Of a stretch of 64,000 nt of DNA, positions 2,290-64,000 are shown piece by piece. Each line of letters begins with the position of its first letter. Position 1 is the stretch's first letter. This stretch comes from Scenedesmus sp. ARA3. Taxonomy: Eukaryota; Chlorophyta; Chlorophyceae; Sphaeropleales; Scenedesmaceae. Below the pieces are notes generated by a model. It ran no database searches. It saw only the letters and a list, made by a program, of their open reading frames with translations, and was not told the DNA's origin. Location of the stretch: assembly GCA_004335835.1 (NCBI GenBank), contig RWJK01001206.1:1-64000 (forward strand), written 5' to 3'. A program made the translations under genes and the position numbers.

Positions 2290-4651
2290 TCAGCGCCAGT
2301 CATGCCAGCAGCCGCAGCTGGCAGAGGACCGATCTAATGGCAACAGAGGAGCACTTTCTTTTGCAGAGGCCTGGCACAAGCTGTCACCAGATGACACTGC
2401 CAGCTCAGCAGCCAGCCGCTGCTTGAACTGCTCGTAGACCTGGCTGATCCTGGCCAAGTGCGCTTCATCAGTTGCTGTGCCTGGCACAGGCCGCCAGCTG
2501 CTGCTGCGCTTGTGAGGTGCTGTCACCATGAACGCATCTGTCAGCACCTGCAGCAGCAGCATGGTTCGTGGGTGTGGCGCACAACAGACTTGCAGGCTTG
2601 TTGAAATCAACAGCAGCGTGGCGCAAGCAGACACTCTGCGACCCCAGCTATGCACACACAGACTGGCGCAACGCTGACAAGTGGCACTCGCATGGCCCAC
2701 ATGCTGTGCCCACATCAACAGCTGTCCCATCATGGCGCAACATGGGTAGATCCCCACCAGTGCACTGCAGACACCAGATCCTCGTCAGAACCACGTCATG
2801 TCTTGCTTTGGTTACATGTGGGTCCTGGCACCATCGGTTTGTGTCCTGCTTTCCCTTCAGCACTCCAACCTACCTGAAAGCTGTAGCCAAGCTGCGCGCA
2901 GTGCCGCGCGTGCTGCACCTTGTTCGGGCCATGCTATGCAGGCATATATAATGTCATCACAAGCACAACATGCCTATGCTCATTCAATTCTTTTCAGACT
3001 TATAAAAGCAAGCCCACCTGGAAGCTGTAGCCGAGCTGTGCACAGTGCCAGGCGTGCTGCACCTTGTTCAGACCATATCCCCGGAAGGCCTCATCATAGC
3101 GCGGCAGCTGGCCCTTTACTGCCACACCCTGCGGCTCGAAAAATTCACAGTATTCAACGCTGTATGCATGGTCACAAGCTGATGCAGTATCTGCGGTAAC
3201 ATCTGCTGCTGCTGCTGCTGCTGCTGCCGCTGCACCTGTTGTTGGTGCTGCTGCTGCTGCTGCTGTTTCAGGCAAGCTTGGGCCTGCAGGACCTGAAGCA
3301 CCAGCAGCCAGCCAGCCAGCCACATCAATCGGCTGCCTTTCAGGTGGAAAGGCCCCACAGTGAAAAGGCTCCACCTGCCCAGCTGCTACTGCAGCTGCCA
3401 GCTGCTGCTTGTTCCTGGGTACTGCAGCAGGCTGGCTGTCAGGCAGTGCCTGCTGCAGCACTAGCTGGAAGACAGGAAGCACCAGCATCACTGGCCACTG
3501 CTGCTGCTGCTGCTGCTGCTGCTTCTGGTGTTGCAGGGGATGATTGCTGGGAGCTGCTGTTTCTTGCATGGTGCTTGACTGCTGCTGCAGATCCTGCTGC
3601 TGCTGCTGCTGGATGTCTGGCTGCAGCAGCTGCAACACCCAGGGCTGTACCAGCATCTCCTGCAAGCCCTCACTGAATATGAAGTCCCCGTCAGCACACA
3701 GCACCAAGGGCGTGGCTGCCTGACTCAATGCTAGGTTGCGCAGCGCATTGATGGGGTACAGCTGGTCATAGCTGGGCTGGTATGTGGCTGTGGGGTCCAG
3801 CAGAGGGTGCTGTGCTGCAGTGACGCCTGCAGCACAGCAGCAGCAGCAGAAGCAGCAGCAGCAGCGGCGGCGGCATCAGCATTTTAATATGAGGATATGT
3901 GCATTGATTGGGTACAGCTGGTCATAGCTGGGCAGGTACGTGGCTGTGGGGTCCAGCAGAGGGTGCTGTGCTGCAGTGATGCCTGCAGCACAGCAGCAGC
4001 AGCAGCAGCAGCACTTCAAGTTTGAGCACCTGGCAAGCGGGCGAATCGTAAGCCTTTTAGGCGGCTGCTCTTGCATGGTGCTAGGGTGCCTGCGGCAGCA
4101 GCAGCAAATGCTCAGTTGTAGGAGCGTCAATGTTCACAAGCACTGCTGGTGCGGCAGCTTACCTGCCTGCTGCAGTGCTGCAGGGCCCTCTCTTGCATAA
4201 TGCTGCGCAAACAGCGCTGACACCAGCAGCGGCTGCTGCGGGTGGCTTCTCACATACTGCTCAGCCAGCTGGCCCGCTAGCTGTATGCCTGTCTCTGCTG
4301 CTGCGCTGCCGTAGGGTGCTGGTATGTGGACTGCAACAGACAGGGGACCTCCCCATGATGCTGCTTGCTGTGCCCAGCGGGGCCACCTGCATGGTTGCAG
4401 TCGGTTGCAGGGCACTCAAAAAGGCATAAACATACACACAAAATGCGTTAGAGCTCATGCAGGTGCACGTAGCATGGCAGTGGCGAGCTGTGTCAGGTGG
4501 AGAAGAGCATATACGGTGCCACAGCCAGCTGCTGGTTGCCAAGGGTCAACTGAATAGAAGTTCACCTGTCCAAGCTTAGCTGTGAGCAAAGTGTGCAGTT
4601 GTGTTTGATTGGGTTGATCTGCGCTGCGCTGCGGTAGACTCCTGCCCGTGT
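2290..4651 (-). CDS. LARGE-type glycosyltransferase (GT49 family)
   Basis: Proposed exons on the minus strand are 4651-4566 (tentative), 4386-4163, 3826-3018 and 2547-2290; they join in frame. In protein order one sees LSLDR, then GPLSVAVHIP, then YPINALRNLAL, then the likely DxD-type metal site CADGDF, then PRYDEAFRGYGLNKVQH, and finally VLTDAFMVTAPHK. This order is typical of the LARGE/B4GAT1 family (Pfam Glyco_transf_49). Animal members build glycans in the Golgi; the algal substrate is unknown. Exon 3826-3018 carries family-atypical poly-Gln and poly-Ala inserts. The N-terminus, probably with a membrane anchor, is not fixed; a candidate upstream exon is listed separately. Two introns hold duplicated exon edges. 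The family call is sure, the gene structure less so. Confidence 0.85.
2814..2835 (+). repeat. Dispersed repeat core ACATGTGGGTCCTGGCACC
   Basis: One of at least four related copies: 2814-2835, 42848-42869, 53491-53512 and 60888-60909, with a weaker one at 59363. All are on the same strand and lie in introns or spacers of unrelated genes. Confidence 0.7.
2872..2931 (-). repeat. Intronic copy of a GT49 exon end
   Basis: This intron segment repeats, with about 85-90% identity by eye, the last 60 bases of the exon ending at 3018, including the splice donor. The real copy encodes the stretch ending LGYSFQ. The copy lies about 145 bp downstream in transcription order and keeps the CAG|GT junction. 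Confidence 0.75.
3901..3991 (-). repeat. Intronic copy of a GT49 exon start
   Basis: A near-identical copy of the start of the exon at 3826, with its CTG-rich tail and CAG acceptor. It reads from GCATCACTGCAGCACAG to the codons for YPINA, then runs into unrelated sequence with a stop and no obvious donor. It is therefore probably not a functional alternative exon unless an unseen donor is used. Confidence 0.8.
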
Positions 4652-19160: not shown

Positions 19161-19195
<35 letters not shown>

Positions 19196-27299: not shown

Positions 27300-27388
27300 T
27301 TGTGTTTGGTTCAAAAGGCAGCTGGCTGCCAGCACGGTGCTGTATGCTGGCGCATCGGCTGGTGATGTCTGTAGGTTGTCTAGGACTG

Positions 27389-35982: not shown

Positions 35983-36017
<35 letters not shown>

Positions 36018-36148
36018 TGCTGCTGCTGCTGCTGCTTCATGCAGGCCTGGGCATTCTGTTCCAGGTGGCTGCAGCATCTGCTGCCGTCTACACGCTGTTT
36101 CTGCTGAGTGCGCTGTACCAGGAGTTCAAGCGGCATGCGGTGAGCAAG

Positions 36149-36211
<63 letters not shown>

Positions 36212-36827
36212 TGCTCTCCTTCCCACAAGCATCTGACCATGCTTTTGCCCAGCTCCAACTGCACTCATCGCATGGGCGTCAGCGCCTCCATGCAGCCAGC
36301 GCAGTTCAAGACCAGCACTTGAAACACATCAAAGACGGCAGCTGCTGCACACATGCGTCTCATTTATGTCTGAACCCATCCACAGCTGCTTCGACTCCCA
36401 CATGCCTTACCCCTGCTGGTGTTTTGTGTGCCGCAGATCAAGACCAGCACCTGGAACAACAGCAAGGACGGCAGCCGCCGCACACGCGTCACACAGTACC
36501 ACTCTGTCATCACCGGTACCACAGGCAGGTGAGATACAGCTGCAGGACGCACGGTACCACCGGCATGTGAAATACAGCTGCAAGACGCACGGTACCACCG
36601 GCAGGTGAAATACAGCTGCAGGACGCACGGTAACACCGGCAGGTGAAATACAGCTGCAGGACGCACACAGACATCGCGGCACATGCTGTGGCAGTCTAGG
36701 CACATAATGCAGCACAGCCATGCGGTCATCAGCAGCTGAGCTGGATTCTCATGTTGCTGAATTGCAATGCGCCAGCAGCTTGCCAGCGGGCAGCCGCAGT
36801 GCAGCAGGGGTTGCCTGACACACCTGG

Positions 36828-36872
<45 letters not shown>

Positions 36873-38308: not shown

Positions 38309-38370
<62 letters not shown>

Positions 38371-38420
38371 NNNNNNNNNNNNNNNNNNNNNNNNNNNNNN
38401 NNNNNNNNNNNNNNNNNNNN

Positions 38421-38475
<55 letters not shown>

Positions 38476-38559
38476 AGGCCATGCATGCTGTTGGAGGTGC
38501 TTGACAGCCAATTGAGACCTGCAAAGTTCTGCAAGGCCTTCCAAACGTTCCAAATCAAG

Positions 38560-38590
<31 letters not shown>

Positions 38591-38592
38591 GG

Positions 38593-38634
<42 letters not shown>

Positions 38635-39438
38635 TGCTGCTGGTGCTGCTGCTGCTGCTGCTGCGGCAGGCCACTGCATGCTGTTGGAGGTGCTTGACAG
38701 CCAGTTCAGGCCCTCAAAGTTCCCAAAAGCCTTCATGTTTGCGCTGATCTACGTCACAGCAACAATGACAGTGCCGAGTGCGTCTTTCACCTTCCTGGCA
38801 TTCCCTGAGCAAGCCACCAAGTATGGTGCGTGATCACCAGTGGCACTTGATCTCCCACGTTGTTTCTCTGACTTCTGAGCGATTTCTGCGCCTGTCATTG
38901 GCTTTGCCAAAGCGCGAGGTTACGTGTGTAGCCTCCACTTCTGAGTGGTGCTGACAGTGCTGTGGTAGCCGGTTGGCTGGCAGCTGATTAGCGTGTGGCG
39001 CTATGGTGATGCAAAACATGCCTGGCGGGCAGCAGCGACAGCTGCACATTCAGCAGCGCTACCTGGGCACGTAAGACACAGCAGCGTCCCGGCAGGTTTT
39101 TTTGCCAAGCCAAGCTGGGCAGAGGGATTTCAAACAGACACTTGCATGACTCAACACAGCAGCAGCTTCACACTGCAGGCGCGCTAAGTGTGGCAGCTTC
39201 CCGGCAGTAACTGCTCAGTCAAGCTTTCAGCCTGTGCACTTTCACAACTACTGTTTGAGTTCCAAGATTGTTGTATGCTGCTCTTCAGGCAACGCATTCG
39301 CCATTTTCCCTCACAGCCCCGCGAAGGTTGTGGGCATTGTGCTGATGGTGGCACATCAGCTGGTGGCTTACGGGCTGTTCATCCTGCCTGTGTGCATCAT
39401 GTGGGTGGCCACTGCTGGTTCTCAGATGCAGCTGCAGC

Positions 39439-39470
<32 letters not shown>

Positions 39471-40666
39471 TTGGGTGGCATGCTATCTTGTAAGATAGTT
39501 ATTGCGTGTTGGTGCTACTGCCCTGCTGGTTTCTGCAGGTGGGAGGAGCCGCTGCGCACTCACTACACTGCTGTAAATGCTACCTGTTCCTTGTCACAGG
39601 TGGGAGAGCTGGTGCACACTCACTACACTGCTGTAAATGCTGCCTGTTCCTTGTCACAGGTGGGAGAAGCTTGTGCACACTCATCACACTGCTGTGAATG
39701 CTGCCTGTTCCTTGTCACAGGTGGGAGAAGCTGGTGCACACTCACTACACTGCTGTAAATGCTACCTGTTCCTTGTCACAGGTGGGAGGAGCTGGTGCAC
39801 ACTCATCACACTGCTGTAAATGCTGCATGTTCGTTGTCACAGGTGGGAGAAGCTGGTGCACACTCACTACAAGCCCCTGTGGATTAAGCTGCCCTCACGC
39901 CTGCCCGTTGGTGAGCAGTGCTGCTGTATGGCACTGCTGCTGCAGCACGTGTCGCTGTTGCTGCTGGTGCTCAGCAGTGCAGGGCTCCATATGTGTTGTG
40001 CTGCTGACAGTTGCATTGTCACACACTGTTGATGCTGCATTGTCACATCAGGAGTCAGAGGCTGCACAGGTTCATCACAACCAAGCAGAAGCTGGTGCAT
40101 GACAGCTCTGCTAGTCTGTGTGCTGTAGCTCGCGAAACTCTTCATTATCGCCTGATTCTCTCCAGCGTTCAAGCTTGCCAGTAACATATGATGCGCCCTG
40201 CCCAACTGGTGCTGCTGCAGCGCTGTTTGTGTGGTTCATTGCGCTGCTGCTGCCCTTTTTTGGGGTCATCAATGACATCCTGGGCGCATTTACTGTCACC
40301 TTCGAGACGTAAGTAGGCCTATGTAAAGGCAGCTATATACAGCTGCTTTATTGCTGCTTCGCCAGTGGCAGCCGTCACGCTCATCGCCCTGCAACAGCAT
40401 GAGTCAGACATGGACGTGCGTGTGTGCAAGCGCGCCCCCCTCCTCCCCTGCCATTTTTGCACGCGAGGTGCTTTGCTGCATGCGCGGTGAATGCAAGACT
40501 TGTGTTGGTGGCTGTAGGGTTGTAGGATCAGTGCGGGTTGGCCAGCTGGCAAGACTGCAGAGCGAAGCAATCGTGCCTCTGGCTGCACAAGTGCACGTTT
40601 ACATATGTGGATGCATGCTAGCTTGCGCCTCCAATTACGCAAAGCTGGCTGTAATCAACACATCTG

Positions 40667-40702
<36 letters not shown>

Positions 40703-41533
40703 ATGCTACTGCATCCTTGCTGCTGCTGCAGCTACATCATTCCCTGCCTGGCATTCAACCTGTACTACCAGGGCCACCTGCAGCGACAGGCCAGGGCCCT
40801 ATTCAAGCCACCCAGGTCAGTGCTGCAGTTATCTGCAGGCGATTGTTTGATCATGTGTCACCTGATGTAACATGATGCATCAAACCACCTGCACTGCCAG
40901 GGCCACCTGCAGCGACAGGCAAGGGCCCTCTTCAAGCCACCCAGGTCAGTGCTGCAGTTATCTGCAGGCAATTGTTTGATCATGCATCACCTGTTGTAAC
41001 ATGATGCATCAAACCACCTGCACTGCCAGGGCCACCTGCAGCGACAGGCGAGGGCCCTCTTCAAGCCACCCAGGTCAGTGCTGCAGTTATCTGCAGGCGA
41101 TTGTTTGATCATGCACCACCTGTTGTAACATGATGCATCCAAGCCACCTGCACTGCCAGGGGTACTTGAGGCAGCAGGCCAGGGCCCTCTTCAAGCCACC
41201 CAGGTCAGTGCTGCAGTTATCTGCAGGCGATTGTTTGATCACGTACCACCTGATGTAACATGATGCATCCAAGCCACCTGCACTGCCAGGGGTACTTGAG
41301 GCAGCAGGCAAGGGCCCTCGTTAAGCCATCTAGATGGGCTGCTGCAGCCATTTCCGTATGGGCTGGACAGGCGTGCTCACAGCTACATCCTGGTGGTTGT
41401 TACTGTCACTGCTGCCCCATCCTGCTGCTGCCACTTTACTGATGCTGCCACTGCAGGTTATTGGGCTGCAATGGCGCGTCCATCTTCACCATCAACCATA
41501 CTGCTGCCAACTCACAATTGCTGCTGCTGGTGG

Positions 41534-41572
<39 letters not shown>

Positions 41573-41948
41573 AGGCTGTTGGTCTGGACTGGTGTTGTTA
41601 CAATTGACTACATCCTCATTGCTGTCACCCATGCTGCGCCAACTCCTGCTGTCGCCATTACTACTGCTGCTGTCCTCACAGGCTGTTGAGCTGTACCGGT
41701 GTCTTCACCTTGACCTACATCCTCGTTGCTGTCACTGCCGTGGCCAACTTGTGCATGTTTGCTGCCGTGTCTCTGACTGCTGCTGTCTTCACAGGCTGTT
41801 GGGCTGGACCGGTGTCTTCACAGTGAACTACATCCTCGTTGCATTCACTGCCGTGGCAGGGCGTGGCTTTGGCGGCTATGCCAGCGTGGTGTCACTGATT
41901 GACAGCATCGGCAAGTTTGGCGTGTTTGCCAAGTGCTACAACTGCTGA
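34712..41948 (+). CDS. AUX1/LAX-type auxin or amino-acid permease
   Basis: Fourteen exons join exactly: 34712-34754, 35047-35168, 35634-35685, 36045-36139, 36437-36528, 36875-36994, 37243-37302, 37660-37829, 38670-38825, 39289-39400, 39843-39910, 40221-40308, 40732-40815 and 41795-41948. They give 471 residues, ATG to TGA (plant AUX1 about 485). It is a polytopic AAAP-family membrane protein. It follows AUX1 from end to end: WEGGHPADAFLTAASAQVGQ, LLNLPNS, SALYQEFKR, IASASNFY, FIPSFRNMRLF, NILFTFGGHCMLLEV, NAFAIFP, WEKLVHTH, FFGVINDILGAF, TYIIPCLAFNL, RGFGGYASV and the diagnostic C-terminus FGVFAKCYNC. The FGGH histidine, which I take to correspond to AUX1 His249, is kept. Plant AUX1 is a plasma-membrane proton/auxin importer; substrate here is unproven. 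It lies head-to-tail behind an ISS1-type aminotransferase. Confidence 0.92.
35548..35633 (+). repeat. CTG tract abutting a 3' splice site
   Basis: CTG runs with GTC interruptions fill the end of intron 2 and lead into CAACCAG|GTGGGCC. They likely serve as a pyrimidine-containing acceptor context. Confidence 0.92.
36149..36214 (+). repeat. CTG triplet tract in intron 4
   Basis: A run of about 20 CTG units with one TTG interruption, a few bases inside the donor at 36140. A second run at 35985-36040 sits just before the exon starting at 36045, and a third at 36829-36873 leads into the exon at 36875. Confidence 0.92.
36290..36350 (+). repeat. Drifted copy of AUX1-like exon 5
   Basis: TTCAAGACCAGCACTTGAAAC and the following GACGGCAGC mirror exon 36437-36528 (IKTSTWNNSKDGS), about 145 bases upstream of it, with substitutions and a stop. 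Confidence 0.75.
36515..36666 (+). repeat. Four exact 38-bp units spanning a splice donor
   Basis: Units 36515-36552, 36553-36590, 36591-36628 and 36629-36666 are each exactly 38 bp and differ at only a few bases. Every unit contains the end of exon 5 (GGTACCAC(a/c)GGCAG) followed by GTGA, so up to four successive donors exist; unit 2 has GCATGTGA instead. 38 is not a multiple of three, so a later donor shifts the frame by 2, 1 or 0 (after three units). The first donor gives the AUX1-like frame. Confidence 0.95.
37560..37700 (+). repeat. Copy of acceptor and start of exon 8
   Basis: GCAGCAACATGCGTTCTG at about 37560-37600 is a drifted copy of the acceptor and start of exon 37660-37829 (GCAGAAACATGCGGCTG), 100 bases upstream of it. 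Confidence 0.7.
37736..38122 (+). repeat. Copy of exon 8 end with donor
   Basis: About 90 bases ending exon 8 (LVPAAASRRPMSLEDVFAGL to FTFGG plus GTGCGTGTGG) recur at 38033-38122 with few changes. The frame is intact but no matching acceptor is obvious. Confidence 0.88.
38311..38476 (+). repeat. Long CTG tract with an assembly gap
   Basis: About 20 CTG units on the left and about 18 on the right of 50 Ns. The run ends CTGCAG|GCCATGC, the acceptor of an exon-9 copy. The true length is unknown. Confidence 0.95.
38371..38420. other. 50-base gap of unknown sequence
   Basis: Fifty Ns inside the CTG tract in intron 8 of the AUX1-like gene. The round length suggests a nominal gap, so the tract could be much longer or shorter. 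No coding sequence of the proposed model is lost. Confidence 0.99.
38474..38760 (+). repeat. Copy of acceptor and start of exon 9
   Basis: CAGGCCATGCATGCTGTTGG and about 80 following bases at 38474-38560 duplicate the start of exon 38670-38825 (CMLLEVLDSQFRP, then FPKAF). Both copies are preceded by CTG runs, the second at 38558-38668. Confidence 0.92.
39539..39910 (+). repeat. Six-copy 61-bp acceptor ladder
   Basis: Units begin at 39539, 39600, 39660, 39721, 39782 and 39843. Each reads GTGGGAG(a/g)AGCT(g)GTGCACACTCA at its start and ends CTTGTCACAG, so each carries the first about 27 bases of exon 11 plus a 3' splice site. The sixth continues into the real exon (WEKLVHTHYKPLW). Unit length is 60-61 bp and divergence about 5-12% by eye. 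Confidence 0.95.
40765..41335 (+). repeat. Five copies of exon 13 end with donor
   Basis: CCAGGGCCACCTGCAGCGAC and the following segment to CACCCAG|GTCAGTGCTGC recur near 40768, 40899, 41026, 41157 and 41285 with a period of about 129 bp. The first is the real exon end (YYQGHLQRQARALF). Later copies drift (QGYLRQQARAL). Confidence 0.93.
41370..41860 (+). repeat. Copies of acceptor and start of the last AUX1-like exon
   Basis: Versions of (cag)GCTGTTGGGCTGGACCGGTG followed by TACATCCTCGTTGC occur near 41352, 41456, 41571, 41681 and 41795. The last is the real exon 14. A CTG run at 41521-41574 precedes the third. Confidence 0.85.
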
Positions 41949-44900
41949 AGCTGAGTGCTTGTGCGTGAGGAGGTACGTTGTAACGGTTTCAAGTAGGGAC
42001 TGCACTTTGAGAAAGCATCGATGAAATGTGTTGAAAGTTAAAGTTACTCAGCTATTGTCAGACGCGTGTGAAATTGCCTGTTGCATCTTTGGAGTTGTTT
42101 GTTAGCATGTGGTGGCGCTAAGAGTTGTTGTCAGGTCGTCGCCGTTGAAACTTTGAGTTCACCGCTTCTGCATTGCTATCGACAGATTGCATTCCGTCCA
42201 ATGAATCTACTGCACCTGCAGTGCGTGCACAGTTGCTAACTGTGCCGCTCTGGTGCACTGCCTGCTGCGCACCTTGTGTACACACTTCTTGCATGGCAGT
42301 CAGAAGGGGGTCTGGGCCCGCAAACTTTCTGTCACAAGAAGCTGCCGTTATACAACTGGCCTCTTCAGAGACAGTGCAGTTTGGTTTTCTTCGAGGCATG
42401 TGTCAGGGCGCAGCTCCCTATCGACAATTGTTGTACTGCATGTGTACCAGGAGCTTGCTTGCAAAGGCACCTGCGGATGTCTGGCAGTGCTGAGCTGTGA
42501 GTGCCGACCATGTTTGAACTGCTGCTGCTGCTGCTGCTGATGCTGCTGCTGCTGCGCATTGCACTGTGCACTTTTGCCATTTGCTATGCTCAGTTACGGC
42601 CGCATGTTTGGGACTGTCACAGTGCAGGTGTGTCTGAAGTGGCGCAGCAAGTGGATTGCTGTATTCTATACATGCCAGATCAATGAAGCCAACAGCTGCA
42701 GATGCCCTGCACATCTGTATGCAGATGGGCTTCTTGTTGGCTCTTGGTCAGATTGTACAAGATTTTGCATTCTTATATGGGTGGCGCATCACAAACAGAA
42801 AGGAAAGTATAAGCATGCAGGGGCCGCTGCTATGAGAGAGGATAGTTACATGTGGGTTCTGGCACCATCTTGGATGGCTATGCATGCATTCATGTGTTGC
42901 TCATAGTGACGTCATCAGGGGTCAATCAGGTAAATATGACAGACAGCCTTGCTGCTTTGGCCGCATTGTCTGGCTGCTACAGCTGCCTAGCCACGCTTAG
43001 GGCTGAAGCGTTGCTATATAGCAGAAATATCTCTCATGCGCATGGCATCTTCTTGGCTTGCTGATAGTGTGAAATGAATTGGAGTGTTGTGTGGAGGTCG
43101 GTGCGACGTAACGTATTGTAATGTATTGTAATGCTTGTGGAAGGTGTGCGGGCGCTTGTGTGCCGTGTGTTCTGCAGTTTGCTGGTCACTGCTGGAATAC
43201 GCTTGAATGCATGTCAGCGGCAGCATGGCTTGGTGGCATCCTTGTGTTAATACACCTTGATTCAGCAGCACAGCGATTATCAAAATAGGCGAAGAGCGGA
43301 GCACACTGTAGCAACCTTGTTACAACTAACGAATCTGACAATAAACTCGTAACACCCGTGTAACATGACATGCCCTGTATGAAGCGACAGCCGTGCACAG
43401 CGGCTGTTGCTGTTGCCCGCTTTGCTGCACGCTGTATGCACAGCTTGGGCCGCAGGCAGCCAACACGCACAGTATCATGTTGCAGCCATCAATTAGCTTT
43501 GTATGTTATGCTGTTTCCACACAGAACAGCTTGAGAGGCCTGCCGCTCACAGACCGAGCAAAGCCCCTAGGCAATCAAAGGTACTGCGCTGCAGTAACAA
43601 TCATCTCGAGCCTGCTGCTCACTGCTTTTGTCACCAAACAAATCCGAGCTGTGCAGCTAGTGGAAGCTACAAGATTCAAGGAATGCACAGCTGAAGATGC
43701 AAAAAATGCAACCTGCTTCCCGAGCGCTTGGCCACCTTCAGATGCACAAGATGCAACCTGCTGCCAGAAATGCTTGGCCACCTTACGAATTGAGGCAACC
43801 ACTGGGAACCAAGCATCCGTCATGCTGCAACGGCTGCCACAGCAGCTGTGTGTGCACGAACTGGGCGAGCCACGTGCAGGGTTGCAGGTAGTAAGATGAC
43901 CGCTTGTCCTTCATGCTGCAATGGAAGTCGCGTGTACACTAAATGCATGCACTAAATGGCCCTTAACATGCCCATGAGCAAGGCACGCGGGCAAGGTTCA
44001 TGCACATAACCATCACAACAGCTACTTGCTGCATGGTGCGGCGTGTAAGAATCTTAGATCAGCTTAAAGCCTGACTGACGTAGGCACCACAACACACACG
44101 TGCCAAACACTGCCCAACAGGCTACAGCTTGTAGCTATACTGCAGTGCTACCAACAAAGCAAGGCAGCGGACATGCCAAGCTCAACAACACCGCCATTGC
44201 TAGAGCTGCTGAGCAGAGTCTCTGCAAAGCAGACCGACGCAATGCAACAAATCAACGTGACACAATCTTTTGCTGACGAGGAAACAGCTGCACAGCGAAC
44301 CATCGTGTTCTGCGGCTGAAACACAAACACAGTGTGGCCATGTGGCCTTGGAGCATGCACGTTTCCACATGCCCTTCCTGTGTGGTGCTAACTGTCTGTA
44401 TGTCATGTCATATACTGGGCCTGGGCAGCTGGGATGAACAGCATTCACAAAGCAGACCCACATGCACTTATCCACAACCACCTTGTCTTCATCAAGTAAC
44501 GATTCCAACGCACATAGGAGATCCCTAGTCTTCATGGGCGAACTGGTCTACACCACGCAACGCAGTGCTTCAAACTACCAGCCTTGCAGGGTAAGCTTGC
44601 TAGGCTATGCGTCAAACGCCACGCTGGAACAACCCCCTGATTGGCAACATGATGATGATGACTGGAACAACCCTTCTGCCTGGAGCCTGCCAAGCTATTG
44701 TCTGCACCCCAACTCCATGTTGCAAACTTTCAACCTCATCTGCAGCACTACCTGCTGGAAAGCAGTGCTGTACAACGGCTTGGTGATGTTCTATTCACTG
44801 AGGGCTGAGAGTTAGTGACACTGCGTCACACACAAACACTCCAACCCGACTGTTATGCATTGAACTAATAGTGGCGCCACGACCCGCAAACACAGCTGCC

Positions 44901-45795
44901 CTGTAGCCGCAACATCAGCCACATACGGCTGCTCTGTTGTCTGATGCCAGCCCATTGCCAAACAAGTGCAGCACAATGCAGTCACACGACTTTCCATAGA
45001 GCTCTCCACAGCACTGCAGCATCATCACTGCTAGTTATAGGACACTCATTCCAGACAGCATACAGCTAACCATGTACCGCGCACCGCACTTAGGCAGCTG
45101 CGCCAGGCATCTCTCCACAGCACTGCTGCATATCTTTTGCCAGCACTCATTCCTGACCTGTCCCAGCCGGACTGATGCTATGCAATTCTGCTGTCTGCAT
45201 GCTTTGATCCACCGACTCTGCTGCAGTCAGGTGTGCTGCTGTGCGCACACCTTGGTCCGCTGCAGCTGTCGAGTCTGCTGCAGGTGCGTCTGCTGCTGTG
45301 CGCATGTAGTGGTTCAAAGAGCATTCTGAAGTTAGGTCCGCTGCAGTCATGTCCGCTGCATACAAGAGAGAGGCAGCAGGATCAGGCAAGACAGTGTGGG
45401 CAAAGACTGCTCGATTTTTGTGGCTTGATGCGGGTGATAATTTAAAGGTTCTTTACGAAGTGACTTACTTCTGGGTTCTTTAGGAAGTGACTTACTTCTG
45501 GGAGCGCTGGAGGATCGGCGCATCAGCAATGCAGCAAACATTGTGCTGCGGCGACACAGACTGCAACACACCACGCAGGATGCCACAAAAGGAAGCACAT
45601 GTCAAGCCCATGCCCATCTCTCCGCAGCACACCAATCCTGCGGACTCAAGCTGGCAAGTGTTGCGCTGGGCGTCCTTTTATGTTGCCCTCAGTACCTGCA
45701 AAGTACTGCCAGCTGTGCTGGGCTTGTCTATGCGTGTGGTGCCAAAACATTTCTCGCTTGAGGCATACCAGGTTAAACCCTTGCCACCCTAGTTC
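41949..45795. other. No gene recognised (3.8 kb)
   Basis: After the AUX1-like stop there is no convincing exon chain on either strand up to the KCS stop at 45796. A copy of the dispersed ACATGTGGG element lies at about 42833-42880. The region may contain UTRs, non-coding transcripts or a fast-evolving gene. Confidence 0.5.
42833..42880 (+). repeat. Dispersed repeat copy, longer version
   Basis: Reads GAGAGAGGATAGTTACATGT, then GGGTTCTGGCACCATCTTGG. It matches 53469-53522 over about 45 bases with one indel, so the unit is longer than the 22-base core. Confidence 0.65.
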
Positions 45796-45969
45796 TTAGG
45801 CAGCCCAAAACTCACCCAGCACAGCGGCTGCATCCTGCTGTCGCTCCTTGTCTCCCGCTGCTGCTGCTGCCGCCTTGTCAGCAGCCATCTCTGCCAGCAG
45901 CGCCTTCAGTTTGCCCTCCATCACGTGCAGATCAGCACACATGGCAGCCATGTCAAAGCCCTGCAGCAT

Positions 45970-46002
<33 letters not shown>

Positions 46003-49000
46003 TGACGGGTGCCAGCAATGAGCACTGCCCAGGTAATAAAGCTAACAGCAGAGCAGTGCACGCCGTGCCGCTGCAGCTGCTTAGCCATACATGCAAACGT
46101 GCGCCATGCAGCAGCAGCAGCAGCTGCAGAATCTCTGGCACACACCTGCCACGCCGGATGCTGGAACTTGAAGCTCCTGTTGGCCTCCCACACCAGGCTG
46201 TTGCACTTGAAGCCGCTGCCAAAAGCCAGCTGCAGCACACGCTGCCCTGCAGCCAAGCCTTGGAAGCTCTCGATGTACGCCAACACATACCTGCACGGGC
46301 AGAAGGAAACAGTTCAATTGTATGAAAATGTGAATCAAGAATGTGGTGTGGCTGCCATGCAGCCGCTGCCAAAGGCCAGCTGCAGCACCCGCTGCCCCGC
46401 CTGCAGGCCCTGGAAGGTCTCAATGTACGCCAGCACGTACCTGCGCGGGCAAAAATGATAGGTAAATTCAATTGTATTCGAACAAAAAATAGATGCAGCT
46501 GCCAAAGGCCAGCTGCAGCACGCGCTGGCCTGCCTGGAGGCCCTGGAAGCTCTCGATGTACGCCAGCACGTACCTGCAAATGCAAAGGCATGCCTTTGCA
46601 GCTACAACATTTATTCTGACGTTCCACTATGGATTTCTGCGCAGAAATCCAGAGTGGAACGTCAGAATAAATGTTGTAGCTGCAATTGCCAGCTGCAGCA
46701 CGCGCTGCCCAGCAGCCAAGCCATGGAAGCTCTCAATGCACGCCAGCACGTACCTGAGCGGGAAATATTCTCAAAATGCAGCTGTGAAAGTGAATGCGAC
46801 GGTGTTATTTGCCAAAGGCCAGCTGCAGCACACGCTGCCCAGCAGCCAAACCCTGGAACGTCACCAGAAAGGCCAGCAGATTCCTGCTCGGGTAAAGTGA
46901 TATGCAATACAATTGTCACTGGTTTGTGCCGTTATCTGGTTGTTATCTGCCCTGCTCAAAGGTTGCTGGGCCCCCCCTGAGGCCTGCTCTGCCAATTCGT
47001 TTGGCTGATTGTAATGCTGTTATAATATTCTTAAACAATACGCACCAGATGCTCCTGCAGCTGGTGTTGCCGTAGCGGGGTGAGGTTGGCCCTGCTTGGC
47101 TCCACATGAGGCCTGCTCTGCTTTGTTCAATTTTACGTAACATTGTTATTACAGCTGACAGTAACACGCACCAGATGCTGCTGCAGCTGGCGTTGCCGTA
47201 GCGGTACAGGCTGGCACTGCTGGGCTCCACCTGAGGCTTGTCATATTCATAATATGACATATGAAGCCTCAGGTGGACACAAAACTGTAACACAGTTATA
47301 GCAACATAACATCACACGTACCAGATGCTGCTGCAGCTGGTGTTGCCGTAGCGGTAGAGGCTGGCCCTGCTTGGCTCAACGTAGCTGGCAGGCAGGGCCA
47401 GCTCCTTCTGGATGCCGTCTATCACAGCCTTGCCTCCTGCAAGCACATAACAGGGCAGATGTGACGCCGCCGTGTACGTGTGGTCGACACTGAGATTGCA
47501 GCTGCATGTAAGCGTGCCCAAAGATCGGCGTGTGGCGGACAGTGCGGCATACTGCACTGAACTGCGGTGCTGCGCGTGAGCCTGGGTCATACATTGCCAC
47601 AACACGCACTTTCACAGCCTTGGCATGCGTGCGTGTACATATGTACACACCTGTGTGTATGCTGATGTGCTCAGCACACTTCTGCAGGCCTGGTCGGTAC
47701 AACTGCAAGCCGTACGCGTGCCCTGAAGTCTGCAGGGAATGCACACACCCAAACCCTACAAGATGAACCCTGCACTTGTGCGTGCACGCACCTGTGTGTA
47801 TGCAGATGTGCTTGGCGCACTTCTGCAGGTCCGGCTGGTACGGCTTCACGCCGTGGCGGCGCAGTCACACCCTAAACCCCTAAACCAAACCAAAAACCAT
47901 TCACCTGTGTGTATGCAGATGTGCTCAGCGCACTTCTGCAGGTCTGGCCGGTAGGGCTTCACACCGTGGCGGCGCAGCACCTTCCGGCTGACGTAGTTTG
48001 CGGCGAATGTCGCCTTCTCCCGCAGCGGCATGACCTTGGGCAGCAGCTCGGTGAAGTTGAGCCGCATTGCCTTAGCTGTTGCAGGCACGAGAATATCGTG
48101 GAATATGACAATGTGTTGTGAGGACGCGGGCCAAGAGGAGTCGCATGCTTGTAGTGCATGAATGTGTTTACTGTGCATCTTGGGCAGTACTCCAAACTAT
48201 ATGCTTCGTAAGTGCTGCATCCCACATGCAATCTATGGAGTGGCCTTGAGCAGCTTGGTGTTTTTAAAGCCCTGGCCATCACACTCGGTCAATCTAGCAC
48301 ATCGCACTGCATATATAGCTTGACTACATCCGCCTGCCCACCTTCCATTATATGCAGATTGTACATCAAGGGTTGAGGATCTATACAGCACAGCTAGCTG
48401 TAACACAGTGGGCACGTGTCAGGATCACAGGATCACAATACATCATTTGGAATCAGCAGCTCAAGCGCAATCGTGGGCATGCCCTTGGACAGCTTGATGC
48501 CTTTCATTCCCTGCTCGTCCAGTGCCATGTTGAACTGTTCTGCAACTCCTTCAGAATATATCGAGGGAGCTACGGAAGAATGCAACATGGCACCAAGCTG
48601 CAACCTTTGTCAGGTCTCTAGATCTAGGTCTCTAGGTCTGCTGCCCTGCCCACGATCCAGCTGCTGAGCAACTCCATGACATAAGTCTTCTCATGTTTGG
48701 GGGACTACAGTTGATGCAACATTGCAGCGCACCTGCAAGCTTTGGAAGGTCCTTGGACAGTTTGATGCCCTTCAAGCACTGGCCATCCTTCAGCTTCTGA
48801 GCAGCACCTATCAGACAGCAGCACCTATCATATGTATTCCACATAATCTTCGGACACTACAGACGCGTGCAACAATGCTCCCTACCTGCGATCTTAAACA
48901 AATCCTTTAACAGCTTGATGCCCTTTATGCCCTGGCCATCACAATCAGCCCATCTAGCGCAATAAACTGCAACAGAGCACATACAAACCACTGCTCACCT

Positions 49001-49442
49001 GCAATTTTGGGCAGGTCCTTGGCCAGCTTGATGCCCTTTATGCCCTGGCCGTCCTCCAGCTCCTGTGCTGCGCCATACCATCTAATTTCACATGATGAAA
49101 ACAGCTTCAAATGAGTGCAACACGCCACCGCTTACCTGCAATCTTAGGAAGATCCTTTGACAGCTTGACACCTCTGATGCCCTGGCCGTCCTCCAGCGCC
49201 TGTGCTGCACCATAATACATGTATCTTGCGAAGCATGTTAATGCGGCTGATAGACTGCAAGATCAAGCTTACTGTCACCTGCAATTTTGGGCAGGTCCTT
49301 GGACAGCTTGATGCCCTTCATGCCCTGGCCATCCTCCAGCTCCTGTGCAGCACCATATGCAGCATCTTCTGCCATAAGGTTGGTGCGCACCAGGCAGTGC
49401 AGCTTGTACTTGGCACGCCTGCGGCAGCAGCAGCAGCAGCAC

Positions 49443-49494
<52 letters not shown>

Positions 49495-52400
49495 GCGATA
49501 TCCTCTGGCATGAGGTTGGTGTGCACCAGGCTGTGCAGCTTTTACATGGCACGCCTGCGCCATTGAGGTGCAAGTGGGTGCAACGCGTGGGTGGAATGCT
49601 AAACAATAGTTGGTTGAAATGCACCCTACCAACCAACAATAACCACACCGGACAGCTTCCAGGGATCTTCAGTTACAGCAACTGTCTGTAACAGCGAGCG
49701 GCTGGCATCCGATTGTTGATCGGCTCATGACAGTGCCACACACCTGGCCTCGCTGCGCTTGTTGGTCAGCAGAATGGCAGCTGCCCCGGACCTGCAAGGC
49801 GGCAGCAGCAGCAGCAGCATGAACTGTTTCAAGTCACAGCAGCAGCTTCAAAGCTCAAGCCTGCATGTGCTACAGGCGGGGAAGCACACGCGCACACATG
49901 CAGAGAGCACGGCATGGTGCATTGGCCCTGCTCACAGACAGCGCGCTTAGATTGACCCAAACACTACAAACATGCGGGCCCTGCCAAGCAAGCCTACCTG
50001 AAGAGCACGTTGGCCACCTGCATGCTGCGCTGTGTCCCTTTGTAGATGGACTGAGTGACAACCTCAGTGGACACCACCAGCGCATAGCTCCCCGGGCGCA
50101 GCAGCAGCGCCTGCTGAGCCAGCTCAATTGAAATGGGGCTGGCTGCGGGAGCAAAAAGGACATGCAAAGGATGCATGGTGGGGCAGGTGGCATGCGAATC
50201 TGACAGCCTGTTGTGTTATGTGAGTTGCCAGGGCAAGCTACTTTCAGTTTGCTTGCTGCAGGGCAATGATGGCCACAAAGCATTCACAGCAAATGGTGAG
50301 TGACACATATGAGGCACCCCGTTGGACACCACCAGCGCATATATGCTATATAGCTGCCGGGGCACAGCAATAATGCCTGCTGCGCTAGCTCAATTGAAAT
50401 GGGGCTGGCTGCGAGGACGGGAGGGACACAAAAAAGCGTGTGGCTTTCATTGTGGCTTCCAAGCACATCAGCAGTACAACACAATACCAACAGAAGCCGT
50501 TTGTGCCTCACCTGCGCAACCCATGCCTCCCAGGTTGTAGTGCAGCGTCTTAGTGCTCAGGTTCAGATGGTTCATCAGCTGCGCTGCCAGGCTGGGAGTG
50601 GGGCAGAACACACTGCTGTTGACAACCACCACGCCAATGGCACTGGCCGGCACGCCAGTGCGCTGCAGCAGATCCCTGCGGATGTTTCAGGGGCCAGTGC
50701 AGGAAGCAACATAGTGCAAGGCAATAAGCGGCGGTGATGCGCAGGCAAAAACGCTGCTGTTGACCATCGCCAATCTGATGGCAATGGTGGGCACGCCAGT
50801 GCGCATCAGCAGATCCCGACGGCAGCAAAATACCAACACACGCAGAAGCAGTGCAGCACAAACATTGGTGGGGCAGAAAACGCTGCTGTTGACCACAACA
50901 ACACCAATGGCACTGGTGGGGACCCCAGTGCGCTGCAGCAGATCCCTGCAGCAAAGACGGTGCAAGCAGCAGCACATCCGGATGATGATGCATAAGAACA
51001 CGCTGCTGTTGACCACTGCAACATCAATAGCGCTAGTGGGCACGCCGGTACGCTGCAGCAGATCCCTGCAAGAGCAAAATGCAAAACAGCAGCAGCAGTG
51101 CAGCCAGCAGCAGCAGCAAGGCGCAGCGGTGATAACACATGCGCAGAGCGAACAAAGCGTGCTCATCAGCAGTGCATTCCCGACGTCACCGAAGCCTGCG
51201 GCGCCTGCAGTGGCACTGCAGGCTCTTGAAGAGCAGCACACATTGTGCGACTTCGCAGCACCGAGAGACACACGAGTTTCCAGCGGGTCCTGCAAGCGAC
51301 CCACGTCGCCTGCGCTGCTGCACTCACTGTGCTGCATGGATGGCCACGCTTTTCAATCTCACAAAAACATGCTGCCTTTATTGCTCGTCATGTAAAGTCT
51401 ACTCACTGTGCTGCCCTGATAGCCACGCTGTCAAATTCCAGGCGTGCCTTGCCAGTGCTGGTGTCCTGGGGGAAGTTGTGCAACCCTGTACAGCAGTCAG
51501 GAGAGGGCAGGGAGGTGCAGGCGCGTTGCAGCATCAACAGTGGTTGCTTGATGAACTGGCACACTGCTAACAAGGCATGTTGCTGTGGTGCAGACGCGTT
51601 TGATTGTTTGGAATACTGTTGTACTATTCAAGACGACCAGCTTCTGTTTGGACCGCCCACAGCTGTTGTGTCTGCTACAGTACACAAGGGTATTGTCAAC
51701 ACATGAGGTGTGCAGTACTGCTGGCCAGCATCGCCAGACAGCGCAGCTGAGCTTGACTGGCTTCAGGCAGCAGCATCTTTGCCATCATGATGGTGATCAC
51801 TCAACCTATTCGACATTGATGTGGCAGACATCACACTCACAGTCTGGCGCGTAGGTGGGGGGCCCCATGCCTGCTGCATACGGCACCTGCTGCTGGAACT
51901 GCAGCACTCTTGCAACTGATAACACGCTATAACAAGAAAACCCAGAAGGAATCCACTCACAGTCTGGCGCGTAGGTGGCGGGCCCCATGCCTGATGCGTA
52001 CAGCACCTTTTGCTGGAACTGCAGCACTCTTGCAACTGATAACACGCTACAACAAGACAACCCAGAAGGAATCACACTCACAGTCTGGCGCGTAGGTGGC
52101 GGGCCCCATGCCTGATGCGTACAGCACCTTTTGCTGGAACTGCAGCGACTCCTTTGAGAAGAAGTTGCTCTGCAGCGTGCTCTCATGCAGCCGCTCCCTG
52201 CTGTTGGCCCAGCTGTAGCATGGTGGCAAGGAGAATTCAGGCGGAAAGCAGTGGACAGCCACAGACAGCGAGCAGTGTTAGTATTTGCGGGTGGTGCTTG
52301 CTCACATCCAGTGCCGTATCCAACTGTAACAGCATCTTGCGCACCAAGCAAGCCCTGCTGTTTGCCTTGCGCTTGGCTACACCACAGACAACACACGGGC

Positions 52401-56600: not shown

Positions 56601-59600
56601 CTGGCAACATTGCAGCAGCAGCAGCAGCAGTGGCAGAAGCAGCAGGGGTGCCGTCATTAGATAGTAGAGTCAAACAAAAGGCTTCAAAGCAGCCGAGAGC
56701 TTGCAATCGTGCCACAAAGGGTCCTCAGGGGCCACGTGCCGCAGCGCTGCACACTCCCCCAGGGAGGTTCACGACAGCAGCGAAAAGCGAGGCGCGCACC
56801 TGGAAACATGGCAGCAGCAGCAGCAGCAACAAGGAGTGATCGATTACCAGCAGAGGAGATATTGTAATACGGCGCCACCAGCTTGTGTTATGCACACTGA
56901 CGCCAACACCAACACACACGCGCACGCGCACAGCTGCTCCCAAGCGTTAAGCAGCTTACCTGCCACGGCGCATGGCTATACAGTGACACCAGCCTCTCTA
57001 CAATCTTGCCCATCCATTGGAAACTCAGCGCGGCAGCGTCGTCGCTGGGAGCTGCTGCTGCTGCTGCTGCAGCAGCAGCAGTTGCCGAAGGTCGGCCGGG
57101 CGCAAGCCTGCAAGGCAATCATGGGCGCATGGTGCAGAATGGCGAACACAATCAGAACTGAAGGCAGCAAGCAGGGCTGTGTATACATAGCCGTGATGGT
57201 ACCTCAGTGTAGGTGATTTAAGACAGATCAGGCATGCAATGCGGCAGAACATCAGCAAATATTAAGCATGTCAGTTTTGATGTTGCAACAGTCATCACTC
57301 AACCCACCTCGCCAAGCCTCTGAACAAGCCACCAGGACTGCCTGGCGCAGGCTTAGCGCCAGCAGCAGCAGCAGCAGCAGCAGCGCCGCTGCCTCCAGCA
57401 GCAGCACCAGCAGCTGTCGGCGCAAGCGCTGGTGTAGCGTCAGCAGCAGCTGGCGCCCCAGCAGCAGCAGCACCAGCGTCCTGTGCCTGGCGCTGCTGCA
57501 TGGCTTTGAAGGGGCACAGGAAGCCTGCCAGTGTGAGCAGCACATCATTCCAGGCCTCTGGCACTACAACCTGCAGCATGATGTGCACACAACAAACAAG
57601 TTGCAGCAGAAACATTGGGTGCTGAGCTGTAGATTGCGTTGTATATAAAAAAAAGTCGTGCAAGCACATCAGGCCAGGCCTCTGGCACTGCCCACGTGTG
57701 GTGATGCACACAAAACCAATGGCAGCAGAAACAGCACGGGCTTAGCTGTATTCTCTGGGAAATAGAGAAGACGTTGTGTGATCACATCTGGCCAGGCCTC
57801 CGAGATCACTATCTGCCTTTGAACACAGTGTCCAAGTGACAGTCAAACCAGCATTCATGTGGCGTGACAGAAACAACTCCTCAGCTGCTGGCCTCACCGT
57901 GTTGAAATGCCCCAGTATTTGCAGCACCAGCTTCTGCACCGGCGGCAGTACCCCAGGTACTGGGGTCACATCATCTGCCCCCGTGGGGTGCCGCGCAAGG
58001 CCATCCATCCATTTCAACAGCAGCTGCATGTCTGCGTGGTCGCAGGCGCCCTCAGGCCCTTGGCTGGCCAGTACGGCTGACAGGCCTGTCAGCAGCTCGC
58101 TGCGAGCCTGCGGGAACGAATAAAAAGCAACACATCAAGTAATGAATGGGTGAACTTGTGTTGCGGCTGTCGCATGATTTGGTCTTGAGAAGAGTGATAA
58201 GAACAGCAGCTGCATGTCTTCGTGGTCAGAGGCGCCCTCGGGCCCTTGGCTGGCCAGCACGGCTGACAGGCCAGTCAGCAGCTTGCTGCGAGCCTGCAGC
58301 ATTGCCGCAAAAGCAGTACATCAAGTATTGAATGGGTGAACTTGTGTTGCGGCTATCGACCAAAACACGCCTTTGAAGCCTTACCTGCAGCTCTTGGATG
58401 TTCCATCATGCTGACCTTGCAGCTGAGGCTGGGTACTGGCATGCATCCAAACCACACCACTTGGATAACAGCACATGCCACATACACCAGCCATCAGTTC
58501 ACCTGCAGCGGTACGCGCGAGTTTTGCACCGACATTGCAGCCACTGCCTCATCAGTTGCAGCCAGGGCCCGCTTCCATGGCACGCCATAGCCAGCTGCAG
58601 CAGCGCCGCTTGCTGCTGTTACTGCACCCTGCACGGGCTTGTAGCTCTGTTGGTTGCATGGTGACGATGAAGCAGCAACAGCAGACACAAGGGCAGAACA
58701 TGAGGTCGGGTGACTCAATAAGCTGCTCAATGAAAGCAGATCAAGCTGTATTGGGAACATCCACCTCTAAGGACTGAATGCAGATCAGCATGCCGCCACT
58801 CGTCACGCAATGCAAATACGCCGACACCCGCCTGCAAGAACCCAGTCAGCAGCTACGCAGCAGCCACCATCAGCATACACATGCATCTCTTACGCACGGA
58901 ACACCAACTGCTGATGCCTCATGGAGTGAATGAAGCAACATGCATGATGATTTATCAGGCAACACATTCAATACTCTGAAGCCCACCTGCAGGAATCCAG
59001 TCAGCAGCTGCGCAGCCGCCACCGCCACAGCCTTGCGCCCGCAGCACAGCACGCGCGCTGCAATGGCGCACACCTCGTCCCACTTCTCGTCAAAGCCTGG
59101 CAAGGGCAGCACCGTGGCCATGTGTGCCTTGAGCACCTTGCCTAAGCCATTCAGCGCCAGCACGGTCGTCTCATCCCTGGTTAGGGTATTGGGTCAGGGG
59201 TGGGAAGGAACAGCAGCAGATGAGGCAGTGAAATTGTGAAGATGCAGCATGTTCCTCAGGCTGTTGAGTGCAAGCACAACCGTGCCTGGGGTATGGCGGG
59301 GCATCTTGAACAGACAAGAGCAAGTCAAGGGCCAAGGGCAGCACTTGTGAGAGGCAACGGTCACATGTGGGTCTGACCATATTCAAGGCAATCCATGCAC
59401 ATGTGTCAGCACCGCGCAACCCTCACATCTCAACAAAACCCAACTATAGTGCACACACAGGCAGCGCCACTCACCACTGCTTCTGCTCCAAATTGCGGCT
59501 GTGGTGCATCAGCATCATCAAGCAAAGTATGCTAGAGGCAGCGGCACACAGAAGATGGGGTGCAAGATGTCGTGTTTATATCCCGCACTCACCACTGCTT

Positions 59601-61864
59601 CTGCTCCGAGTTGCGGCTGTGGTGCATCAGCATCATCACTGCCTTGCCTTTCTCCTTGCCTAGCTCAACAGCAGCAGCCTCTGCACTGCTTTTCAAAGTC
59701 TAAATAATCAACAATAAAATCGTGCGGTCCACGGTTAAGCTGTTCAACCCAATAACCAACACAGGTGCAGCGGATGGCTCATGTCTCAACCACCACCACC
59801 ACGCCAATCACACCAGAAGAAGAAGCACTCACCACTGTTTCTGCTCCGAGTTGCGGCTGTGGTGCATCAGCATCATCACTGCCTTGCCTTTGTCCTTGCC
59901 CAGCTCAACAGCTGCAGCCTCCGCGCTGCTGCTGGTGTCACCGACCACATGCACATACGTGACCAGTGGAAACAGGATCTCCCACAGGCAGTAGCGCAGC
60001 GTTTGGGCATCGAAGCGGGACGCTTGGCTGCCGACTGCCAGGAAAAGCGTGCGCACGCCGCTGTTGCGCACCTGCGGCAGACACAGCGCAGCAGCATAGC
60101 GGCAGGAGCAGCAGCGGATAGAGACTTACAGTACATGATGGATCAAGTGCAATAGAATTTGACATAGTTATATCAAAGCGACAGGACCTCAGGAGTGGCA
60201 GAGCAGCAATGTCACCGCTGTCGTAATGCATCGCGCAACCTGCTGCAGCTGCAAGGAACACAGCTGGTCCTTGCAACATTTCCACAGCAACATATCAGAG
60301 CAACAAGTATGAGAGCATCAACAGCGCCTGCTCACCTCAGGCCGCGGGTCAACGCTAATCTTCCTGAAATGCGTGAACAGCCGCAGCAGCAGCTCCAGGC
60401 ACTCGCCCTCACTCAAGTCACTCCTGCCTGCGATATGAGGGTCCTGGTACCCTGCTGCTGCTGCTGCCGATGATGTTTCGCCAGCGGCTGTTGAGTGGTT
60501 GCTGCCATCCGCACCCGCTGCTGCTGCCGCCTCTGCAGCTGCTGCAGGGTTCTCAACCGACTGCCGCCGCGCAATCATCGAAAACAGCCCCCCGAGGGCG
60601 CCACCTAAGCTCGCAGGCGCTGATGGCTGCGCAGCGGCAGCAGCAGCAGCAGCGGCGGCGGCTGCAGCGGCGGCCCTGCTGCGGCCCAGCAGGTCTGTGG
60701 CGTTCCAGAGGAGGCCGATTGCTGCTAGGCTGATGTTGATGGCGCACTTTTGTGCTGCAAAAAGGTAGGCCACTTCCAGAGCTCGCTCTAGGTGCTGCTT
60801 GGGCATGGTGGGCAGGAAGTCGCTGCAGATGAGGGAAGGGTGCGGTGCACACAGGCACACATGGCAAGTGTGAGAACAGACAGAGGCACATGTGGATCCT
60901 TGCACCACCTGAAAACAGACCGAAGTTTCATGGCAAACAACAGCAATGGTGCACTACCTGTTCACAGACTGCAAACACTGAAAGGCTGCTGCGGCGGCTA
61001 CTACGGCTGCTACCAGCAGACACCACCTTTGCAAACCTGCTGAAGGACTCCAAGCACTCTTAGGCTGCAGCAGCAGCTGCTGCTGCTGCTGTAGTAAAAT
61101 AACACCAATCTTGCGCACCTGCTCACTGACTCCACGCACTGGAAGGCTGCGGCAATGGTGCTGGCCTCCACCCAGGCAGGCACTGCCTCCAGCAGCCGCA
61201 GCAGCGGCACCCATCCCCTGCACACGCATTGAGGCAGTACAGGTTTCATGGCAGGGTAGAGAACGACAACTGCAATGCATTGAATTGGGCTCCCCCAGGC
61301 TGGCACAGCCTCCAGCAGCCGCAGCAGAGGCACCCAGCCCCTGCAGCACGGCGGGCGCCATTGTCATACACATTTTACATGCAAACAAAGTGGTCAAGAG
61401 CCCTGCGGTGCCTTGAAATGGGCAGGCACCGCCTGCAGCAGCCGCAGCAGCGGCACCAAGCCCCTGCAGCGCGTCACATCACACTATATTGAAATTCGCC
61501 GCTCAAACATGCATATGCGGGATTGCATATGTTGAAGAAGTCAAAACACCTGCAATGCTATTGGTTCGGCCTTCACTCAGCTGCAGCACACTGCAGCCTG
61601 TCGTCATAGCAACCTTTGGAGCATCAGCACGGCTGGTGTTGGCGCGGCTGCAAGCTGCCTGCTACGAGCACAGGCAGCAGCTGGCGCCTTCTCAGGCCAC
61701 CTGCCATCGACCTCACCTGCTCAGGCACTCCCCATGCCGCTGCAGCACGTGCAGCGCCACTCGCAGCAGCCCCAGCCTCACATCAGGCTCCCGCTCCTCC
61801 TTGTACATCGACTCCAGAGCCACCAGCAGCATGTGCTCAACGTCACCCGCAGCGCTGCTGCTGC

Positions 61865-61911
<47 letters not shown>

Positions 61912-64000: not shown

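Follow-up and report, generated by a model that had tools for sequence, protein, structure and literature searches.

Local direct copies of exon edges in the introns of many genes of a green alga

The window analysed here is a stretch of 64,000 nucleotides that forms part of one contig (C867) of a Scenedesmus sp. ARA3 assembly of 87.3 Mb in 1567 contigs. It carries an auxin-permease-like gene and a 3-ketoacyl-CoA synthase gene, as well as an aminotransferase-like and a MON2-like gene, and local direct repeats make up 24.7% of its length. The genes and the repeats at their exon edges are listed in Table 1. Dense CTG/CAG microsatellite runs are also found in the window, some of them directly before acceptor sites, and one permease intron has a stretch of N inside a CTG microsatellite (within 38300-38500). 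Six diverged and unevenly spaced copies of about 96 nt were seen at 26104-27663, in a region of the + strand.

Table 1. Genes and exon-edge copies (echoes) in the window; percentages are identities.
Feature	Position	Strand	Basis or remark
Auxin-permease-like (Aa_trans) gene, 14 exons modelled; echoes in 5/13 introns	34884..41945	+	spliced homologue alignment
Upstream echo, 5′ edge of exon 36437-36528, 83%	36306..36361	+	
38-bp array, 4 copies, overlapping donor edge of exon 36437-36528	36514..36666	+	TRF only; outside echo counts
Upstream echo, 5′ edge of exon 37660-37829, 73%	37565..37621	+	
Downstream echo, 3′ edge of exon 37660-37829, 111 nt, 87%	38008..38118	+	
Upstream echo, 5′ edge of exon 38670-38825, 85%	38478..38542	+	
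61-bp array, five upstream echoes (29-51 nt aligned), 5′ edge of exon 39843-39910	39536..39871	+	
129-bp array, four downstream echoes, 3′ edge of exon 40732-40815, 93-74%	40758..41333	+	
Three upstream echoes, 5′ edge of last exon 41795-41945, 73-89%	41359..41744	+	
3-ketoacyl-CoA synthase gene (FAE1/KCS), 10 exons modelled; echoes in 7/9 introns	45823..52226	-	spliced homologue alignment
Two downstream echoes, 3′ edge of exon 52082-52226, 99% and 90%	51840..52029	-	
Three upstream echoes, 5′ edge of exon 50512-50675, 71-87%	50743..51065	-	
One upstream echo, 5′ edge of exon 49998-50142, 75%	50327..50408	-	
One upstream echo, 5′ edge of exon 49279-49418, 87%	49500..49554	-	
Seven downstream echoes, 3′ edge of exon 49279-49418, 68-94%	48227..49227	-	
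Two downstream echoes, 3′ edge of exon 47905-48075, 92% and 84%	47651..47864	-	
Two downstream echoes, 3′ edge of exon 47322-47436, 92% and 90%	47047..47230	-	
Four upstream echoes, 5′ edge of exon 46146-46290, 81-87%	46358..46881	-	
Aminotransferase-like gene, repeat arrays around exons	30102..31433	+	exon edges approximate
Aminotransferase-like gene, 90-bp duplication	30102-30259	+	
Aminotransferase-like gene, five copies	30290-31062	+	
MON2-like gene, two downstream copies (94%), 3′ part of exon piece 59832-60080	59474..59690	-	

Gene models were obtained with a purpose-written spliced aligner and homologues from protein searches; a codon-usage gene finder was also tried, but recovered only 9 of 24 known exons and was dropped. 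The permease (homologues P0241-P0243) and the synthase gave identical internal junctions with three homologues each, the few disagreements being confined to one internal permease region (P0242), the 3′ part of the synthase (P0123) and the gene ends. Among the matches listed, the best full-length relatives are 63% identical to the synthase draft and 51% identical to the permease draft. CCT5 on contig C1032 was modelled with 13 exons by exon-by-exon alignment to green-algal homologues. These three genes of the one assembly are the exact models used below, with 37 exons and 34 introns. A second set of 48 exon pieces, whose ends are approximate, consists of Pfam chaperonin matches in ten other loci, with Pfam hits that are themselves echoes and hits within CCT5 excluded. 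The loci were selected by family, not randomly.

Echoes were found within 1.5 kb on either side of 52 of the 85 exons or exon pieces (23/37 modelled, 29/48 Pfam), or of 50 when both flanks were run together. This gave a total of 155 alignments, one of which (AUX exon 6) lands on a neighbouring exon, as the flanks include such exons. The first-pass annotation of the window had proposed that introns contain copies of the adjacent exon edge including its splice site, with donor-side copies following the exon and acceptor-side copies preceding it. Such copies were confirmed in the homology-anchored permease and synthase models, and the rule of sides is borne out with few exceptions: copies found upstream match the 5′ part of the exon, those found downstream its 3′ part. 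With the exact models, 30/33 upstream echoes begin no more than 3 nt from the 5′ edge of the exon and 32/34 downstream echoes finish no more than 3 nt from its 3′ edge; for the Pfam pieces, with their approximate ends, the edge is reached to within 3 nt in 25/39 upstream and 28/49 downstream echoes. The side rule is broken three times: in C1552, a 3′ part has two weak matches upstream (71-72%), and in the aminotransferase-like gene of the window a 5′ part has one match downstream (73%). When, as a control, exons were compared with the flanks of other genes, 25/177 matches were obtained, partly paralogous chaperonin exons; an inverted-strand control was added, which gave 151 direct versus 0 inverted copies for the 85 exons. 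By the test used, none of the 155 alignments is a whole-exon copy, though a 74% match spans positions 10-160 of one piece of 162 nt. Whole exons repeated with their frame kept, the mark of tandem alternative or mutually exclusive exons, were not seen. The copies are placed on the intron side and do not alter the coding sequence, as indicated by the edge anchoring, the lack of whole-exon copies and the 536/536 residues of CCT5 (see below).

Counted per exon side, the number of copies ranges from 1 to 7, as first proposed, and arrays of 2-7 are present on 37 of the 67 echo-bearing exon sides. The nearest echo is 100-159 bp off in 45/67 sides and 240-299 bp off in 7/67, and the nearest spacer measures 38-100 nt in 53/65. 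The divergence of the copies ranges from 0 to 30%. The expectation that copies nearest the exon would usually be the most alike did not hold, with 18/37 arrays against 14.05 by chance and no gradient of likeness. Within some arrays the exon part varies in length: upstream of CCT5 exon 10, for example, it measures 98, 73 and 52 nt. Such differences suggest that a single edge underwent several events.

The pattern also occurs beyond the two modelled genes of the window. Copies were found at 3/4 Pfam-defined exon pieces of the aminotransferase-like and MON2-like genes, so that the analysis covered four genes of the window, for which the first-pass annotation had claimed copies in seven of nine. 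Outside the window, in 11 chaperonin loci, copies are present at 38 of 59 Pfam exon hits (the 59 include three echoes). Four further non-chaperonin loci all had local direct repeats, with a copy at 2/5 test exon pieces. The first-pass annotation had gone further, suggesting that nearly every intron is built in this way, and this part of the claim is overstated: echoes are present in 21 of the 34 introns of the three exact models, the chaperonin (CCT) gene C837 has 0/6 exons with an echo, and three kinesin loci have 0/12 exons with an edge echo (two weak other hits) and no local direct repeats. The echo habit is widespread, yet gene-clustered.

An enrichment of repeats at exon borders over random positions, the lack of which had been named as a refuting outcome, was observed. 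With overlaps merged, the repeats of the three modelled genes form 20 families, and a real exon edge is included in 20/20; random placement predicts 3.9 families at an edge with the present introns and 6.8 with repeat-stripped introns. As a small internal control, the stretch between the two modelled genes of the window (41946..45799) was compared with itself and gave no local repeat. TRF reports only short repeats in this stretch: besides a CTG run, a duplicated 45-bp segment (43695-43784) and an array of 27-bp units (45434-45502). Random 10-kb pieces, considered as an intergenic control, had local direct repeats in 7/9 cases; several were rich in N or microsatellites, none had gene models, and they were not used further.

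The intron side of the copies was compared with that of the real edge for 140 edge-reaching echoes, with z values from mononucleotide shuffles, which are rough where weak and also underlie the spacer lengths above and the inner-outermost and divergence comparisons below. It is clearly similar (z at least 6) in 41, intermediate in 23 and without similarity (z below 3) in 76, and the exon parts of these 76 average 87% identity. In 26 echoes, exon parts of at least 90% identity stand beside unrelated intron sides. For donor-side echoes with unrelated intron sides, identity falls sharply at the junction: it is 0.83-0.90 on the exon side and, past the first 10 nt of the intron, about 0.3. An intron side like that of the real edge or of a copy closer to the exon was found for 44/77 inner copies, 6/37 outermost copies and 7/30 single copies (inner versus outermost, Fisher p 4e-5), the other 33/77 inner copies falling below the similarity cut-off. 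With exon identity of at least 90%, 10/15 outermost copies have no intron-side homology at all. The copies first described as tandem are real, but simple tandem copying does not explain the outermost ones. The start of the old intron seems to attach to the outermost copy, with new sequence lying between the copies nearer the exon, and on the basis of this mismatch we read the arrays as the product of an edge duplication with a new spacer, followed by tandem growth. Some spacers recur several units away within one array, suggesting that block exchange between array units may occur. When 61 nearest spacers were compared with the window and L032-L058, none had a match outside its own locus. Telomere-like TTTAGGG repeats are found in the spacer beside a synthase echo (window ~47865-47904), and the echo-rich locus L035 has 13 TTTAGGG/CCCTAAA motifs; such motifs near echoes are possible traces of break repair.

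The CCT5 model allowed the coding consequences to be followed. Its 536/536 residues agree with a database protein of Tetradesmus obliquus (UniRef A0A383W8E2) minus the 15-residue insert of the latter, and this insert is an echo of intron 11 annotated as an exon. Judged by CCT5, on which the naming rests, the genome is that of T. obliquus or a very close relative. The CCT5 protein of a relative (P0120, 94% identical over 448 residues), apparently transcript-derived from the style of its accession, joins exons 1-11 without echoes and then seems to enter intron 11. No second close copy of CCT5 was found among 31 matches in the assembly.

The splice dinucleotides are mostly kept in the listed echoes with exon identity of at least 80%, with GT in 22/23 donor echoes and AG in 20/22 acceptor echoes; the tandem units thus each bear a splice site, as in a minisatellite with multiple splice sites. 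This retention alone does not show use, as at the observed divergence most dinucleotides would persist by chance. The gaps in the exon parts are not divisible by three in 56 cases versus 3 divisible, and 12 changes create stop codons. In the 55 echoes (of 30 exons) whose intron side can be aligned, the intron has diverged by 0.140, codon positions 1+2 by 0.055 and position 3 by 0.159. Dividing the value for positions 1+2 by that for the intron gives 0.40 (0.30-0.52, resampling the 30 exons), a range that includes the 0.5 expected if only the echo drifts. Overall, 583 differences are at position 3 versus 262 and 231 at positions 1 and 2 (about 2.4-fold); third-position mutation bias, homogenisation or weak constraint could each contribute to this excess. 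Many of the CCT5 echoes with the highest similarity have all or most of their differences at third positions. The idea, taken from this gene, that echoes are constrained exons was not sustained as a general rule by the wider sample, and most echoes are most probably not translated. At least one database protein contains an echo as an exon, and gene finders as well as short-read RNA aligners may be misled.

Intron length rises with the number of echoes (Spearman 0.83, 34 introns), each echo going with 119 bp more on a base of about 312 bp, and the median length of introns without echoes is 287 bp; the proposal that echoes account for much of the intron length is upheld in this sense. A mean intron length of 462 bp has been reported for T. 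obliquus versus 230-302 bp in three Sphaeropleales relatives, the passage that reports these values giving no cause (PMC5966456). The echoes offer a countable answer to the question of why the introns of this alga are long, and intron growth becomes testable via recent, datable events.

The reading that we consider best, and to which we give an even chance of being correct, is a near-neutral ratchet in which exon edges are duplicated locally and at a high rate, the copies being kept because one splice site and the protein stay intact. About 20-110 nt of exon with at least the first bases past the junction would be copied as a direct repeat, mostly over a distance of 100-150 bp, and a new spacer of about 40-100 nt would often come to separate the two; a staggered break or a template switch near the junction might be the trigger. 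The copy joined to the rest of the exon would stay functional, in line with the counts, so that donor-side echoes would come to lie after the exon and acceptor-side echoes before it. The unit of edge and spacer would then be amplified in tandem to 1-7 copies of about 119 bp each, as the shared inner spacers support, and the echoes would decay almost freely while the selected real edge served as the anchor for more rounds, which again agrees with the counts. The side rule, the edge anchoring, the absence of inverted and whole-exon copies, the edge in every family, the intron length gained per echo, the difference between inner and outermost copies, the drift-like ratio and the frame-breaking gaps all speak for such a ratchet. 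Against it are the echoes without intron-side similarity (76/140), as later homogenisation of exon parts could look alike, and the inner copies that also miss the similarity cut-off. The third-position excess is somewhat above the prediction for a simple neutral echo, and the many highly similar CCT5 echoes with only or mostly third-position differences are not explained by pure neutrality. A bolder version, which we find rather unlikely, is that the splice junction itself sets the endpoint of a DNA process. Edges would be copied as far as the junction and a few bases beyond and placed with a new spacer in the adjoining intron, the same edges being used again and again in independent events, and introns would owe most of their lengthening to this process. 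One conceivable route is a break, or a switch of polymerase, at the point where an RNA-DNA hybrid made by the transcript ends.

Two other explanations also start from duplication. Tandem duplication of about 125 bp could strike everywhere at random, exon-only copies then being purged, edge-spanning copies being neutral and intron-internal copies decaying faster, with neither copy constrained. The side rule, the direct orientation, the edge anchoring and the absent whole-exon copies would all follow, the divergence ratio is neutral-like, and with short introns most duplications of this size must touch an edge. We nevertheless hold this to be unlikely: even at a one-half chance per family, assumed because intron-internal copies fade faster when both copies drift, the probability of 20/20 at edges is 1e-6, and the outermost copies, even those most identical in their exon parts, mostly lack the intron-side homology that is required. 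The closest competitor of the reading with spacer insertion is that exon parts were homogenised once an ordinary duplication had taken place. Here an old edge-spanning tandem duplication would be followed by gene conversion or slippage that keeps the exon parts alike while the spacers drift. The 26 echoes with well-kept exon parts beside unrelated intron sides, the sharp step in identity at the donor junction and the recurrence of spacers several units away, as block exchange would give, speak for such concerted evolution. A conversion tract was not directly demonstrated, however, and the alignable intron sides diverge as plain drift predicts, and we regard this explanation as distinctly unlikely.

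The remaining explanations concern the nature of the echoes themselves. They could be functional and under selection, serving as alternative exons, as steps of recursive splicing or as decoy splice sites, and the kept GT and AG, the third-position excess (strongest in CCT5) and the echo contained as 15 residues in the database CCT5 of T. obliquus are in favour of this. In addition, a case described in potato indicates that a boundary-crossing copy can be spliced (PMC4974935). Yet the frame-breaking gaps and stop-creating changes, the drift-like ratio of the 55 echoes and the joining of exons 1-11 without echoes in P0120 make function improbable. Inner ends of echoes at an AG or GT inside the exon were also looked for by eye among echoes of at least 84% identity, and none was obvious. 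That the repeats are an assembly artefact or serially joined haplotypes is more improbable still: the unit of 100-150 bp does resemble short reads and the assembly has gaps, but the copies differ by up to 30%, CCT5 is without a second close copy, and the T. obliquus protein, too, carries an echo at this intron, one whose residues are its own, which suggests another assembly. Moreover, T. obliquus is reported to look haploid, and vegetative cells of the Sphaeropleales group are considered basically haploid (PMC5966456). Finally, introner-like mobile elements might have been inserted at exon edges, where spacers that look new are found together with splice signals. This we hardly credit, as within the window and L032-L058 no nearest spacer has a counterpart at a different locus, nor were homologous inserts found dispersed among unrelated genes.

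Introner elements form dispersed families and change the intron content of algae recurrently and genome-wide. The echoes share this recurrent, genome-wide effect on algal intron content, but differ from the dispersed introners in that their nearest spacers match no other locus compared. A human minisatellite at a single locus reportedly has several splice donors; like the echo arrays it is said to consist of tandem units with an exon end and donor site, whereas echoes are widespread and lie at donors and acceptors. Isolated precedents thus exist, while the titles and abstract openings listed by searches of the open-licence PMC literature yielded no description of exon-edge copies throughout a genome. 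New here is that the outermost copies usually lack the intron-side sequence common to the inner ones. In the potato RdRp gene, a tandem genomic duplication across an intron-exon boundary, with a new intron, has been described (Ma et al. 2016, PMC4974935). As in our case, the intron end and exon edge were copied locally and directly, the potato copy retaining branch site, acceptor and exon signals. The potato duplication is one event in one gene, read there as the gain of a spliced intron, whereas here many genes, both edges and up to 7 copies are involved and splicing-in is without support. Among routes of intron gain, a review lists the tandem duplication of AGGT segments and, in Daphnia, staggered breaks with direct repeats (PMC3443670). 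These resemble the echoes in that a local direct duplication, or new sequence flanked by repeats, arises within genes; they create introns inside exons, however, whereas here existing introns are lengthened at their edges.
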